From: Devosia sp. Root413D1
GTDB lineage: Bacteria; Pseudomonadota; Alphaproteobacteria; Rhizobiales; Devosiaceae
Direction of reading: 5' to 3'
NCBI RefSeq assembly: GCF_001425235.1
Contig: NZ_LMEA01000013.1
Span: forward strand, 186,001 to 250,000
DNA length: 64,000 nucleotides
The position numbers were made by a program, and so were the translations under genes. Each line of letters starts with the position of its first letter. The first letter of the stretch is position 1. Positions 5,345 to 59,907 of this stretch are shown here, in pieces. The notes beneath the pieces were generated by a model. The model did not search any database. It saw only the letters and a program-made list of their open reading frames with translations, and was not told where the DNA came from.

Positions 5345-5500
5345 CCTTCTCCCCTTGTGGGAGAAGGTGCCCGAAGGGCGGATGAGGGGTCTCTCTCCGC
5401 GCACTCAATCGCTCGTCGCTTCGCTCCGATCGCGCAACACTCTGTGTTGCGAACCCCTCATCCGGCGCTGCGCGCCACCTTCTCCCACAGGGGGAGAAGG
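5345..5500. repeat. Family C composite palindromic repeat (about 155 bp)
   Basis: Both ends are hairpins (CCTTCTCCCCTTGTGGGAGA on the left, CACCTTCTCCCACAGGGGGA on the right). They are followed inward by GTGCCCGAAGGGCGGATGAG and its partial complement CTCATCCGGCGCTGCGCGCC. The middle holds CGCTCGTCGCTTCGCTCCGATCGCG. A near-identical copy is at 30291-30446 and a shortened one at 20081-20200. It sits inside an operon, between the binding-protein and permease genes. Confidence 0.85.
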
Positions 5501-7672: not shown

Positions 7673-7893
7673 CCTATCCAGTGCTCTCTGCCCTCGCCCC
7701 ACCCACCGGCCGTCATCCCGACGAAAGTCGGGACCTACTGCTCGAACAGTTGGATCGGCACGAAACCGACCGGTCCATCACAGCAAGGTTGGCCAGATCG
7801 CGCGGGCGGACAGGCCGGAGCACTGGGTCCCGGCGTTCGCCGGGATGACGGCCGGTGGATTAGGGGCCAATCGCAATGCTCGCCGCCGCATAC
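7673..7893. repeat. Family A palindromic repeat in a gene-free stretch
   Basis: Positions 7712-7849 hold a family A element: GTCATCCCGACGAAAGTCGG on the left and CCGGCGTTCGCCGGGATGAC on the right. The element is longer than most because about 90 bases of unrelated sequence lie between the arms. The rest of the stretch holds nothing recognisable. Confidence 0.75.
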
Positions 7894-13735: not shown

Positions 13736-13820
13736 GTCATTCCCGCGAAAGCGGGAACCTCGGTTTGTGGAGCGTCCCGTCGCGTACCAGAACAGAGATT
13801 CCCGCTTTCGCGGGAATGAC
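13736..13820. repeat. Family A palindromic repeat
   Basis: GTCATTCCCGCGAAAGCGGG on the left and CCCGCTTTCGCGGGAATGAC on the right are exact complements, each with its own hairpin. It lies between the acetyltransferase gene and the Pho box of phnC. Confidence 0.88.
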
Positions 13821-15175: not shown

Positions 15176-15297
15176 CCACCCCCACCCTTGATCCCTCCCC
15201 ACAAGGGGGAGGGAGACGACTGCACTATCAACGCCCCCGATGAAGCGGCCCCTGCGCCTCCCTCCCCCTTGTGGGGAGGGAATGAGGGTGGGGGTGG
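15176..15297. repeat. Family B palindromic repeat between phnK and phnL
   Basis: The left arm CCACCCCCACCCTTGATCCC is completed by CTCCCCACAAGGGGGAGGG, and the right arm mirrors it (CCCTCCCCCTTGTGGGGAGG, then GAGGGTGGGGGTGG). It occupies almost the whole 166-base gap inside an otherwise tightly packed operon, so it was probably inserted there after the operon formed. Confidence 0.85.
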
Positions 15298-15318: not shown

Positions 15319-16110
15319 TCACACCTGCAAAATCGAACTGACGAGCACCTGCGTATACGGCTCGCGCGGGTCGTCCAGCACCCGGTCGGTGAGGCCCTGC
15401 TCGATCACGTGGCCGTCCTTCATCACCATCATGCGGTGCGACAACAGCCGCGCCACCGCCAGGTCATGCGTGACGATGATGGCCGAGAGCCCCAGATCGG
15501 CGACGAGGCCGCGGATCAGGTCGAGCAGGCGCGCCTGCACCGAGACGTCGAGCCCGCCGGTCGGCTCGTCCATGAAGACCAGACGCGGATGGGTAACGAG
15601 GTTGCGGGCGATCTGCAGCCGCTGCCGCATGCCGCCGGAAAAGGCGCGCGGTTCGTCATCGACCCGGTCCTCGGCGATCTCGGCGCGACCGAGCCATTCG
15701 ATGGCCGTCGAGCGGATCCGGCCATAGTGCCGGTCCCCAACCGCCATCATCCGCTCGCCGACATTGGCGCCAGCCGACACGGTCATCCGCAGCCCATCCG
15801 CCGGGTTCTGGTGCACGAAACCCCAGTCGGTGCGCATCAGGAAGCGCCGCTCGGCCTCGCTGAGGTCGTAGAGATTGCGCCACACCTCGTCACGCATCCG
15901 GTACTCGGCAAGGCCGGAGGTCGGCTCCAGCCGGGTCGAGAGACAGTTGAGCAGCGTCGTCTTGCCCGAGCCGGATTCCCCGACAATGGCCAGCACTTCG
16001 CCCGGCCACAGCTCGAACGACACATCGGCGCAGCCCATCCGGCTGCCGTAGAACTTGCTGAGCCGGTCGACCCGAAGCAGCGGCTCGCTGGCTGAGACTC
16101 TGGTGTTCAT
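15319..16110 (-). CDS. phnK: C-P lyase system protein PhnK
   Basis: A 263-residue ABC-type ATPase similar to oligopeptide ATPases: Walker A GESGSGKTT near residue 42, signature FSGGMRQR, Walker B LVFMDEPTGGLD. PhnK docks onto the PhnGHIJ core complex. The start at 16110 overlaps the phnJ stop (ATGA); an open extension upstream overlaps phnJ and is not used. The features TDWGFVHQNP and RDEVWRN are typical of the family. Confidence 0.93.
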   Translation of the reverse strand: MNTRVSASEPLLRVDRLSKFYGSRMGCADVSFELWPGEVLAIVGESGSGKTTLLNCLSTRLEPTSGLAEYRMRDEVWRNLYDLSEAERRFLMRTDWGFVHQNPADGLRMTVSAGANVGERMMAVGDRHYGRIRSTAIEWLGRAEIAEDRVDDEPRAFSGGMRQRLQIARNLVTHPRLVFMDEPTGGLDVSVQARLLDLIRGLVADLGLSAIIVTHDLAVARLLSHRMMVMKDGHVIEQGLTDRVLDDPREPYTQVLVSSILQV

Positions 16111-16985
16111 TCTGCTGCCTCCAGGGCGTGGCCGGCGAGCTTGCCGCGGTGGCCGTGCTCGCGGCGATCCTCGCAATTGTCGGTGTCGGAGCAGACGAAC
16201 ATGTGCCCGCCCTTGTCATCTAGGATGACCTCGTCGAGATAGACCCCGGTGGCGCCGCACAGCGCGCACGGCTCCTCGAAATGCTGGATCTCGAACGGAT
16301 GATCCTCGAAATCGAGGCTCACCACTTCGGTATAGGGCGGTACTGCGTAGATGCGCTTCTCGCGCCCGGCGCCGAACAGCTGCAGCGCTTCCGACATGTG
16401 CATTTTGGGGTTGTCGAACTTCGGCGTCGGCGAAGGGTCCATCACGTAGCGGCCCTCGACCTTCACCGGATAGGCGTAGGTCGTGGCGATGCGGCCATGC
16501 TTGGCGATATCCTCATAGAGCTTCACATGCATCAGCCCGTATTCCTCGAGCGCATGCATCTTCCGCGTTTCGGTCTCGCGCGGCTCGAGGAAGCGCAATG
16601 GCTCGGGGATCGGCACCTGGTAGACCAGCACCTGCCCCTCGGTGAGCTTGGCTTCCGGGATACGGTGGCGGGTCTGGATGATCGTCGCCTCTTCGGTATG
16701 GGTGGTCACCTCCACCTGAGCGACCTTGGCGAAGAAGGCGCGGATCGACACCGCATTGGTGGTGTCGTCGGCACCCTGGTCGATGACCTTCAGCACGTCA
16801 TTGGGCCCAATGATCGAGGCGGTAACCTGCACCCCGCCAGTGCCCCAGCCATACGGCATCGGCATCTCGCGGCTGGCGAACGGCACCTGGTAACCCGGCA
16901 CCGCGATGGCTTTGAGAATAGCCCGGCGGATCATCCGCTTGGTCTGCTCGTCGAGATAGGCGAAGTTGTATTTGGCGATATTCAT
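16107..16985 (-). CDS. phnJ: Alpha-D-ribose 1-methylphosphonate 5-phosphate C-P lyase PhnJ
   Basis: The radical-SAM enzyme that breaks the carbon-phosphorus bond, 292 residues. Four cysteines at 240, 243, 265 and 271 reproduce the CX2CX21CX5C arrangement of the E. coli enzyme (iron-sulfur ligands plus the catalytic thiyl cysteine). Gly residues in PYGWGTGGVQ (45-53) match the conserved glycyl-radical region. It overlaps phnI and phnK by four bases each. All visible key residues are kept, so this should be active. Confidence 0.96.
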   Translation of the reverse strand: MNIAKYNFAYLDEQTKRMIRRAILKAIAVPGYQVPFASREMPMPYGWGTGGVQVTASIIGPNDVLKVIDQGADDTTNAVSIRAFFAKVAQVEVTTHTEEATIIQTRHRIPEAKLTEGQVLVYQVPIPEPLRFLEPRETETRKMHALEEYGLMHVKLYEDIAKHGRIATTYAYPVKVEGRYVMDPSPTPKFDNPKMHMSEALQLFGAGREKRIYAVPPYTEVVSLDFEDHPFEIQHFEEPCALCGATGVYLDEVILDDKGGHMFVCSDTDNCEDRREHGHRGKLAGHALEAAE

Positions 16986-18199
16986 TCTGCCGCCTCCGCG
17001 GGTGACGTGTCTTCGATGCTTCCGGGCACCTCCCCCCTTGCGGGGGAGGCTGGGAGGGGGGGAGCCACACGCTCGGAGCCTGGGGCTCCCCCCTCCCCAA
17101 CCCTCGCCGCGAGGGGGAGGGTGCCGGCCGGTGCGTGAACATCGTGCTCGGCGCGCATCTCGCGCAGCAGCCCGAGCTCGCCCTGAAAATCAACATAGTG
17201 CGGCAGCTTCAGGTGCTCGACGAAACCGGTCGATTGCACGTTGTCGGAGTGCGAGATGACGAATTCCTCGTCCTGTGCCGGATGGTTCACGTCCTCGCCG
17301 AGCTCGGCGGCGCGCAGCGAGCGATCGACCAGCGACATCGCCATGGCTTTGCGTTCGGCCTGACCGAACACCAGCCCGTAACCGCGGGTGAACTGCGGCG
17401 GCACCTTGGCATTGCCCCTGAACTTGTTGACCATCTGGCACTCGGTGACCCGGATACGCCCGAGGTTCACCGCGAAGCCGAGCTCCGGAATATCGAGCTC
17501 CACCTCGACCTCGCCGATGCGGATCTCGCCGACGAACGGATGCGAGCGGCCATAGCCGCGCTGCGTCGAGTAGCCGAGCGCCAAGAGGAACCCTTCGTCA
17601 CCGCGGGCCAGCGCCTGCAGGCGCCGATCACGGTTCAGCGGGAACTCCAGCGGTTCGCGGGTGAGATCGCCGATCTCCTCCTGCACTTCGGACACGTCGG
17701 GCTCGATCAGCCCCTGGTGATCGAGCAGGTCAGTGACCCGCGGCGCCGGCTCGTCTGCGCTGGCGCGCGCCATGGCTTCATCGACCGCAGCGCCCTCGGC
17801 AATGCTGGGGTCGAGCAGGCGGTGCGTATAGTCGAAGGTCGGTCCGAGTAGTTGGCCACCCGGCAGATCCTTGAACGTCGCCGAAACGCGGCGCTCGATC
17901 TTCATCGCCGCAGTGTCGATCGGCTTCGAATAGCCGAAACGCGGCAGCGTGGTGCGATAGGCGCGCACCAGGAAGATCGCCTCGATCAGGTCGCCGCGCG
18001 ACTGAATGATGGCCAGCGCCGCCAGCTCGCGGTCATAGAGCGAACCCTCGCCCATGGCGCGATCGACCGCGAGGCCGAGCTGTTCGATGATCTGGTCGAG
18101 GCGCAGCGCCGGCACCGAGCGATCGCCGCGACGGCGATCGGCGAGCAGCCGGTGAGCATTGGCAATGGCGGCCTCACCGCCTTTGACGGCAACATACAT
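16982..18199 (-). CDS. phnI: C-P lyase core protein PhnI, with repeat-derived insertion near C-terminus
   Basis: PhnI acts with PhnG, PhnH and PhnL to attach methylphosphonate to the ribose of ATP and can release adenine from ATP on its own. 405 residues, against about 354 in E. coli. The excess is explained by 33 codons (positions 17026-17124, about residues 360-392) that are a family B palindromic repeat read in frame. Translation through it gives GTLPLAARVGEGG and APPLPASPARGEVP. The tail GSIEDTSPAEAAE after it looks like the original C-terminus. The start at 18199 is the natural one, three bases past the phnH stop. The core of the protein is intact. Confidence 0.93.
   Translation of the reverse strand: MYVAVKGGEAAIANAHRLLADRRRGDRSVPALRLDQIIEQLGLAVDRAMGEGSLYDRELAALAIIQSRGDLIEAIFLVRAYRTTLPRFGYSKPIDTAAMKIERRVSATFKDLPGGQLLGPTFDYTHRLLDPSIAEGAAVDEAMARASADEPAPRVTDLLDHQGLIEPDVSEVQEEIGDLTREPLEFPLNRDRRLQALARGDEGFLLALGYSTQRGYGRSHPFVGEIRIGEVEVELDIPELGFAVNLGRIRVTECQMVNKFRGNAKVPPQFTRGYGLVFGQAERKAMAMSLVDRSLRAAELGEDVNHPAQDEEFVISHSDNVQSTGFVEHLKLPHYVDFQGELGLLREMRAEHDVHAPAGTLPLAARVGEGGAPGSERVAPPLPASPARGEVPGSIEDTSPAEAAE
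17026..17124. repeat. Family B palindromic repeat inside phnI
   Basis: The arms GCACCTCCCCCCTTGCGGGG and CGCGAGGGGGAGGGTGC, with inner GGGAGGGGGGGAGCC and GGCTCCCCCCTCCCC, make the same structure as the intergenic family B copies. It is exactly 99 bases long, so the reading frame of phnI is preserved. Confidence 0.85.
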
Positions 18200-20080: not shown

Positions 20081-20200
20081 CCACCCTCATCCGGGCTTCG
20101 CCCACCTTCTCCCATCAAGGGAGAAGACCCGACTGAGATGCCAGTGGAGGACCCTTCTCCCCTTGTGGGAGAAGGTGCCCGAAGGGCGGATGAGGGGTGG
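20081..20200. repeat. Family C palindromic repeat, shortened copy
   Basis: Ends CCACCCTCATCCGGGCTTCG and GGCGGATGAGGGGTGG are complementary and match the outer parts of the copies at 5345-5500 and 30291-30446. The usual centre is replaced by a different short stretch. It separates convergent phnF and the Gfo/Idh/MocA gene. Confidence 0.8.
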
Positions 20201-21503: not shown

Positions 21504-21822
21504 TGGGGGTGTCCTCGTCGGGTGTTATGCCACCCGGGGTCCTCCAGCGGGTCGCCCCGAAATAATTCACCGTCTGGTTACTTAGTCAAGTCTTGGCTCC
21601 CCTCCCCCCGCGGCGCTACCGCGTCCGCTAGGAGGGGAGGGGCTGGGGGTGGGGGTGGTGAGGCGGGCACTGTGCTGACTGCGCCACCCCCTCCCTCAAT
21701 CCCTCCCCTCAAGGGGGAGGGAGGCGGAGTCTGCAAGGTCGAGGCATCCTTCGCGTCCAGACATGGAAGAGCCGGACCGCTGTGGCGATCCGGCCCCCCG
21801 ATGGAACAGGTTGAAGCGGCGA
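21504..21822. repeat. Gap with a family B palindromic repeat
   Basis: Positions 21597-21723 hold the repeat, with GCTCCCCTCCCCCC and GGGGAGGGGCTGGGGGTGGG on the left and CCACCCCCTCCCTC and CAAGGGGGAGGG on the right. An AT-richer stretch at 21560-21590 (upstream of the Gfo/Idh/MocA gene) could hold its promoter. No gene is seen. Confidence 0.7.
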
Positions 21823-30290: not shown

Positions 30291-30446
30291 CCTTCTCCCC
30301 TTGTGGGAGAAGGTGCCCGAAGGGCGGATGAGGGGTTCTCTCCGCCCACTCAGTCGCTCGTCGCTACGCTCCGATCGCGCATCGCCTGGCGATGCGGGAC
30401 CCCTCATCCGGCGCTGCGCGCCACCTTCTCCCACAAGGGGAGAAGG
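30291..30446. repeat. Family C composite palindromic repeat
   Basis: Same structure and nearly the same sequence as 5345-5500: terminal CCTTCTCCCCTTGTGGGAGA and CTTCTCCCACAAGGGGAGAA, inner GAAGGGCGGATGAGGGGT, and the middle CGCTCGTCGCTACGCTCCGA. It separates two convergent genes. Confidence 0.85.
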
Positions 30447-43936: not shown

Positions 43937-44047
43937 GACCCCACCCCTGTCCCCTCCCCTAAAAATGGGGAGGGAGACCAAAACACCAATGCCAGAGGAG
44001 GCGTCTCCCTCCCCCTCCTTCAGGGGGAGGGGACAGGGGTGGGGGTC
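43937..44047. repeat. Family B palindromic repeat
   Basis: Outer arms GACCCCACCCCTGTCCCCTC and GAGGGGACAGGGGTGGGGGT are nearly perfect complements; inner hairpins are CTCCCCTAAAAATGGGGAG and CTCCCCCTCCTTCAGGGGGA. It separates convergent genes. Confidence 0.85.
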
Positions 44048-52875: not shown

Positions 52876-52974
52876 CGGCGTCATTCCCGCGCAGGCGGGA
52901 ACCTAGTGGGATGCTGCAGCACCCGCTGACGCCGGAGATCCCACTGGGTTCCCGCCTTCGCGGGAATGACGCCG
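52876..52974. repeat. Family A palindromic repeat (in a 380-base gap)
   Basis: CGGCGTCATTCCCGCGCAGG and CCTTCGCGGGAATGACGCCG pair almost perfectly, with inner CTAGTGGGAT and ATCCCACTGGG also complementary. The rest of the gap 52627-53006 holds the Pho box array of ugpB and nothing else recognisable. Confidence 0.85.
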
Positions 52975-58243: not shown

Positions 58244-58599
58244 CGAACGATCCGCTGCTGGAGGGAACGGCAGCGGAGCAAGGGGCTGAACGACAGCCCA
58301 GCAGCCCGCTCGGTTGTCATCCCTCGCGAAGGCAGGGACCCAACCCCCGGCGAGGCTACTACTGCCTCGTCCGGCACACTGGCCCGGGCTGATGAATGGG
58401 TCCCAGCTTTCGCTGGGATGACATCGAGTTTGGGGAGCAAGCGGCGTGTCGAACCGCCGCTTTACCCCCAGTAGGTGGGACGATCAGGGCCGAGGGAGGC
58501 CCGGAGCGCCACATCGAGTTTGGGAGTGAGGACGGTGAACAGAACAGCTGCCCCGCTCCAAGGGACTAAGGGACGATCCATCAACAGGGGTATGATTGA
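58244..58599. repeat. Gap with a family A repeat and a short direct repeat
   Basis: Family A element at 58316-58422 (GTCATCCCTCGCGAAGGCAGGG ... CCAGCTTTCGCTGGGATGAC, cited as arms only), with CGAGGCTACTACTGCCTCG in the centre as in 232-333. Just after it ACATCGAGTTTGGGG (from 58421) is repeated as ACATCGAGTTTGGGA (from 58511). No gene is seen. The gap splits the permease from the binding-protein gene. Confidence 0.7.
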
Positions 58600-59829: not shown

Positions 59830-59907
59830 GTCATCCCCGCGAAGGCGGGGATCCATCTCGCCGCTCGCACGGGGGGTGAAATGGGTCCCGGCTTTCGCCG
59901 GGATGAC
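59830..59907. repeat. Family A palindromic repeat
   Basis: GTCATCCCCGCGAAGGCGGG and CCGGCTTTCGCCGGGATGAC with GGATCCATCTC and AAATGGGTCC inside. It lies between the binding protein and the oxidoreductase gene. Confidence 0.85.

Follow-up and report, generated by a model that had tools for sequence, protein, structure and literature searches.

In-frame insertion of a palindromic repeat in phnI of Devosia and DUF559 nuclease genes as candidate partners of such repeats

Palindromic repeats inside bacterial genes have been described before. REPs lie within genes in several species, and the end tags GTAG and CGTC define two REP superfamilies; the CGTC REPs of Alphaproteobacteria are mostly head-to-head dimers, some of them intragenic, and are said in the same source to have no dedicated transposase (PMC3733652, excerpt). 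In Rickettsia, the RPEs are palindromes that lie in frame in unrelated genes and are translated (PMC10969869, excerpt). The protein domain DUF559, which enters the present case through its position between palindromes, has been described as Vsr-like (PMC12907096, excerpt) and placed in the EDxHD homing endonuclease family (PMC9403480, excerpt).

The window, by which we mean the whole stretch of 64,000 nucleotides that was analysed, holds phnI at 16982–18199 on the minus strand, with 405 codons for amino acids, and downstream of it phnJ (16107–16985, minus strand). The two genes overlap in an ATGA that joins the phnI stop to the phnJ start (16982–16985, minus strand). Close to the 3′ end of phnI, at 17026–17124, lies the 99-bp inverted element that the original prediction had reported as a palindrome in frame within the gene, and its sequence, coordinates and frame are all as claimed. 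It consists of two inverted hairpin units, one of the form CACC-stem-loop-stem-NN-GGGAGGGGG and the other a variant of the same. The halves are unequal: unit 1 (17027–17062, plus strand; CACC-hairpin-GGGAGGGGGG) fits the strict class A pattern, and the inverted unit 2 (17088–17124, minus strand; CCCCCCTCCCC-hairpin-GGGTGC) is a class A variant. Between them, the inner flanks and loop of the dimer (17063–17087) correspond to the position that a DUF559 gene takes in class A DUF559 loci. A second dimer of the same arrangement lies at 1650–1754, not in a confirmed gene. The element had also been said to recur elsewhere, and the 99 bp indeed match at least 67 places in the same genome (hereafter the own genome) at E ≤ 1e-3. 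At its 3′ end, phnI has taken up in frame one copy of a CTCCC-type REP dimer (class A) that is present many times in the genome. The foreign segment probably extends beyond the reported 99-bp border, as 13 bp on the plus strand (CGGCCGGTGCGTG, 17125–17137) match the flank of other copies and would belong to the insertion.

The insert lies beyond the conserved part of the protein. The Pfam PhnI match spans residues 1–351 of the 405, and residues 1–352 align with the 354-aa PhnI in structures 7z15 and 4xb6, which we take to be the E. coli C-P lyase core complex. A search at E 1e-3 assigned the 405-aa protein to no NCBIfam family, and Rfam gave no match at gathering scores across the 64-kb window. 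Stops are absent from all six frames of the 99 bp; 25 other copies (90–150 bp) had a mean of 4.2 of 6 frames open, versus 3.3 elsewhere in the same loci. With no stop in any frame of the element, a net gain divisible by three and a position in the tail beyond the core, the insertion gives PhnI a Pro/Gly/Ala-rich tail and leaves its overlap with phnJ in place. Some details of the original prediction needed adjustment. Its figure of 33 codons is right for the 99 bp, whereas the net gain over the nearest insert-less relatives is 39 codons (405 versus 366 aa). The frame, the ATGA and the last residues (..EAAE) are intact, as it had stated for the frame and the original C terminus, but the preceding ~12 residues differ from those of insert-less relatives.

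A search of 61 genomes found PhnI in 28 of them, and PhnI of the close type in 13 of the 19 genomes of the genus. The insert is present in 3 of these 13: the own genome (G000), G015 and G013, the last a MAG that is 82% complete and in which the contig breaks inside the phnI element. The other ten have a short PhnI tail without the insert, five of them at 366 aa and ending in ..AYPEAAE. Alignment with close relatives, in which the original prediction had expected the segment to be missing, shows just that, with tails shorter by 39 codons; this holds for G003, G011 and G014, whose PhnI cores are 97–99% identical to the own PhnI. Distant PhnI proteins, 43–44% identical, occur in G032, G024 and G003, in the latter two alongside the close type, and the PhnI match of G008 falls into two pieces near the N terminus, by frameshift or assembly error.

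The own phnI core is nearest to that of the insert-less G003 (94.4% of nucleotides). The three carriers do not form a clade in the phnI core tree, and a tree forcing them together is rejected (AU p 7e-6). Since these non-monophyletic carriers nevertheless have nearly the same bases after the element, we infer that one phnI allele was probably passed between species by recombination. The insert region of the own genome and that of G015 differ at 12 of 120 nucleotides, with 0 indels and 0 stops, and 9 of the 10 changed codons in the insert are nonsynonymous. For the 36 insert codons dN is 0.14 and dS 0.07, for the PhnI tail (residues 355–405) 0.11 and 0.13, and for the strongly conserved PhnI core 0.020 and 0.43. 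By these rates the insert residues look nearly unconstrained, which suggests a peptide that is tolerated rather than conserved. No clean empty site was found. Of the two marks of a MITE, a target-site duplication was established for neither phnI nor CobN, and terminal inverted repeats may be present as the inverted ends (ACTGA..AGACGG) noted by eye in a subset of class A copies. In four other genomes (G003, G001, G050 and G030) other palindromes lie between phnI and phnJ, which marks this junction as a repeated target.

The own genome contains 114 occurrences of the unit core GGGGGAGGNNGGGAGGGGG and none of the reversed pattern. A scan of this genome with the 99 bp gave 202 candidates, 40 of which were scored; a count of unit matches came to 135, and 40 copies besides that in phnI were fetched. 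The usual order of the class A dimer (minus then plus) is opposite to that in phnI (plus then minus). The element often lies just past gene ends, a stop standing 10–31 bp before the repeat in 25 of 74 frames that score strongly under a simple codon model, in which antisense shadows score too. It is a short hairpin of high copy number, mostly intergenic and near gene ends, as a REP is. Neither GTAG nor CGTC tags were seen by eye at either end of the phnI copy; some class A copies have CGTC within the AGACGG/CCGTCT sequences on their flanks. Among the 40 other copies fetched, only that in cobN was confirmed as coding: of 13 frames that cross or enter copies, the cobN frame alone matched Pfam. 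We took the other 12 (L119, L114 and ten more) as antisense shadows and left them out of the count; codon score served to judge the remaining copies.

Further repeats populate the window. Units of CGTC-type appearance (TCATTCCCGCG..CGGGAA and similar), several of them inverted dimers, lie separate from class A at 233–332, 7713–7848, 13737–13819, 52881–52969, 58401–58421 and 59831–59906; we assign them to this type by motif. A third type of repeat, GAGAAGGTG..GGATGAGGG, occurs as inverted pairs at 5361–5484, 20084–20196 and 30307–30430 and presumably resembles the RIME of rhizobia; this type forms both arms of one DUF559 in G015. Class D palindromes are found at 15179–15294, 21687–21708 and 44024–44045, and class D is the arm type of 10 of the 63 DUF559 genes tested below.

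The phnI insertion is not isolated, as in-frame segments of a similar sort recur in CobN of the genus. CobN (G000:C9:491200-493998 in the own genome) has two permissive sites with in-frame segments that differ by species and are mostly palindromes of several classes. Site 1 carries extra segments in 11 of 16 readable genomes, counting a segment in G010 that is not a recognised CTCCC palindrome and one in G012 that looks like a remnant. Site 2 (WTGP..RTVGD) carries them in 11 of 15 readable genomes and is short in 4, by a pattern that requires an open frame and that broken copies therefore escape; by eye, these segments belong to classes A, B or D or are short hairpins. The CobN match of G008 has a stop near site 2, so not every gene is intact. 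In the phnI and CobN cases, as in RPEs, the insertion is in frame and the host protein is retained. CobN of G005 (L129:735-4616) goes further and holds at site 1, between two palindromes, a complete DUF559 domain in frame, within an open frame of 1294 aa in this one draft genome. Ten chosen loci were inspected for in-frame DUF559 fusions, and on reading them only this case looked real.

Because of this DUF559 domain within CobN, we searched the genus for PF04480 (DUF559), which gave 76 rows in 17 of 19 genomes. Two partial rows (G012:C397 and G005:C146) were dropped and 74 kept; of these, 63 were tested and 11 at contig ends excluded, 6 of the 11 having a palindrome of class A, B or D on one or both sides. 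With 150-bp flanks, inverted repeats reached a score of at least 25, a cut chosen after the results were seen, at 49 of 63 DUF559 genes versus 0 of 1,078 control windows, which came from the same loci as the genes, some loci serving two genes. With 350-bp flanks, scores of at least 40 were reached at 32 of 63 genes versus 0 of 741 controls, and scores of at least 30 at 45 versus 13. The arms are hairpin repeats that mostly begin within ~75 bp of the domain.

Outside the genus, an earlier run had given scores of at least 30 at 12 of 30 genes versus 17 of 270 controls; fresh stretches were used thereafter because those controls could overlap element flanks. In other Alphaproteobacteria (20 loci, one per genome, in an order that favours strong DUF559 matches, with G188 and G105, near contig ends, omitted), 150-bp flanks scored at least 25 at 12 of 20 genes versus 1 of 393 controls. 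The signal was weaker with 350-bp flanks (12 of 20 versus 45 of 353 at this cut, the best control equalling the best gene; p 2e-4 by rank test). With 150-bp flanks, scores below 25 were seen at 14 of the 63 DUF559 genes of the genus and at 8 of the 20 from elsewhere.

Arm class could be labelled for 52 of the 63 genes, and their tree requires 7 label changes where the minimum is 6. Treating the unlabelled genes as an eighth group gives 14 changes versus a shuffled mean of 39.7, with 0 of 200 shuffles as low; the tree has 107 columns and many weak forks, and near-copies help the labels to cluster. The classes were drawn by eye from the arms before the tree was made, and three patterns were merged into class C. 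The grouping of all class A genes as one has support of 58/24. The association of DUF559 with palindromes is specific, and arm type tracks DUF559 clade.

Class A repeats form both DUF559 arms in G014, G011 and G005, and at G014:C1:496664 and G011:C1:1316920 they stand plus then minus, as in phnI. The DUF559 of the own genome (G000:C11:778495) has class A on one arm by pattern and, by eye, a diverged unit on the right arm, the two again standing plus then minus. Class A units are more numerous in genomes with a class A DUF559 (p 0.0034, 5 versus 14 genomes, G003 being counted on the strength of one flank only); for class B, the relation of copy number to DUF559 presence gave p 0.055. G015 and G013 have 48 and 66 class A units yet no recognised class A DUF559, one of the two DUF559 matches in G013 lying at a contig end.

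DUF559 is a Vsr/EDxHD-type nuclease by homology and conserved columns. A search with its profile hit PDB 3hrl at E 3e-33 and, at E 1e-4, 3r3p, a protein of mobile introns that we take to be I-Bth0305I; E, D, H and D columns, presumably the catalytic motif of EDxHD nucleases, are invariant in 20 aligned sequences. The dN/dS ratio of 0.05–0.17 across 8 selected pairs, in some of which dS exceeded 1, indicates purifying selection. A DUF559 gene adjoins pccB in G000, G003, G014, G002, G018 and G005 and is absent there in G015 and G011. At the pccB–pccA junction (L304, L305 and L309), no exact empty site was found and other inserts were present; this comparison by script covered 18 of 20 loci, 7 of them without a recognised pccB end, and overlooked the DUF559 of G002. 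RAYT was rejected as the mobiliser, as a search for PF01797 that gave matches in 5 of 14 control genomes gave none in the own genome.

We favour, at a probability of about 0.6, the reading that a class A copy entered phnI in frame and was kept by selection, with a cognate DUF559 driving the spread of the palindromes. Class A dimers would be short relatives of loci with the order REP, DUF559, inverted REP. The cognate nuclease would cut DNA at or near the palindromes, and repair after the cut would copy them and so spread them. Where a site was permissive, selection would have retained copies that were in frame, and recombination may later have carried the phnI allele from one species to another. 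A role of DUF559 in moving the palindromes is our inference. We see about even odds for the broader proposal that DUF559 and its cognate CTCCC palindromes are an undescribed kind of mobile element, widespread in Alphaproteobacteria, in which the nuclease has a RAYT-like role, many subtypes occur per genome and short copies add peptides to PhnI and CobN.

The main competitor treats DUF559 genes as independent homing-type invaders and the palindromes as class-specific landing sites that something else has spread. DUF559 does sit between two inverted REPs, and the dimer of the phnI type looks like an unoccupied version of that site; the protein is related to one of mobile introns and is called an EDxHD homing endonuclease (PMC9403480, excerpt), and class-specific pairing with palindromes would follow from target specificity. 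However, class A copy number follows the presence of a class A DUF559, and a search of the own genome for PF01797 (RAYT/IS200 type) produced no other mobiliser. The data fit both accounts, and we hold this one to be the less likely of the two. Spread by a lost or different transposase, with DUF559 association a by-product (for example, of terminators around a selfish gene), would leave unexplained both the tracking of DUF559 clade by arm class across species and the tight flanks in other families of Alphaproteobacteria. We find it improbable, even though REPs elsewhere go with RAYT and one REP superfamily is without a known enzyme (PMC3733652, excerpt).

Other explanations concern the phnI segment itself. 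Its sense RNA folds into a single long hairpin (−88.7 kcal/mol, z −6.2; none of 200 shuffled sequences folded as well), and so stable a structure before the phnJ start could have been kept for tuning phnI–phnJ expression, as the palindromes at the same junction in the four other genomes might also suggest. Yet 10 of the 13 genus genomes with close PhnI do without the segment and its residues drift, and we give this explanation little credence. An ancestral PhnI extension lost in relatives, the outcome that had been named as contrary to the original prediction, is rejected and in our view very nearly excluded. One point in its favour is that the carriers do not group together in the phnI core tree, which then requires three changes. 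Against it, the segment is a multicopy repeat, and short tails without it are found in outgroups and in 10 of 13 genus genomes, among them G003, the nearest in phnI sequence; the insert-less tails resemble one another and those of outgroups.

On the favoured reading, with DUF559 as the driver, the nuclease gene between palindromes, whose clade goes with the arm type, is a concrete and testable candidate for the spreader of CTCCC palindromes; if this is true, a Vsr/EDxHD nuclease would take the role of RAYT for palindromes in Alphaproteobacteria. The in-frame insertions illustrate a way in which such repeats can supply new protein segments while the genes stay intact, and in CobN two sites whose filling varies from species to species form a natural series. 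The pairing of DUF559 with palindromes looks new: no such link was found in titles and abstract openings among the open-licence PMC papers that searches for DUF559 and its other names gave.

The phnI insertion itself is of a known type, an intragenic REP that is RPE-like. Like RPEs, the element is inserted in frame into genes and translated, and the original prediction was apt in likening the two as working alike; REPs within genes have also been described in several other species (PMC3733652, excerpt). The Devosia element differs in being a G+C-rich CTCCC hairpin dimer linked to DUF559. With the CGTC REPs it shares the bacterial class, the dimeric form and some intragenic copies; the stems differ, and no CGTC type was seen among 50 DUF559 arm pairs inspected. 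The EDxHD homing endonucleases, represented by I-Bth0305I (PDB 3r3p), are matched by the DUF559 profile at the E of 1e-4 given above, whereas DUF559 genes lie between palindromes, with several classes per genome. A further parallel is the REP/BIME/REPIN system with RAYT, or 'REPtron', in which short hairpins form inverted dimers, mostly downstream of genes and sometimes within them, and in which the cognate enzyme gene is flanked by its repeats (PMC3733652, excerpt); in Devosia, however, the repeats enclose a nuclease of Vsr/EDxHD type and not a tyrosine transposase.
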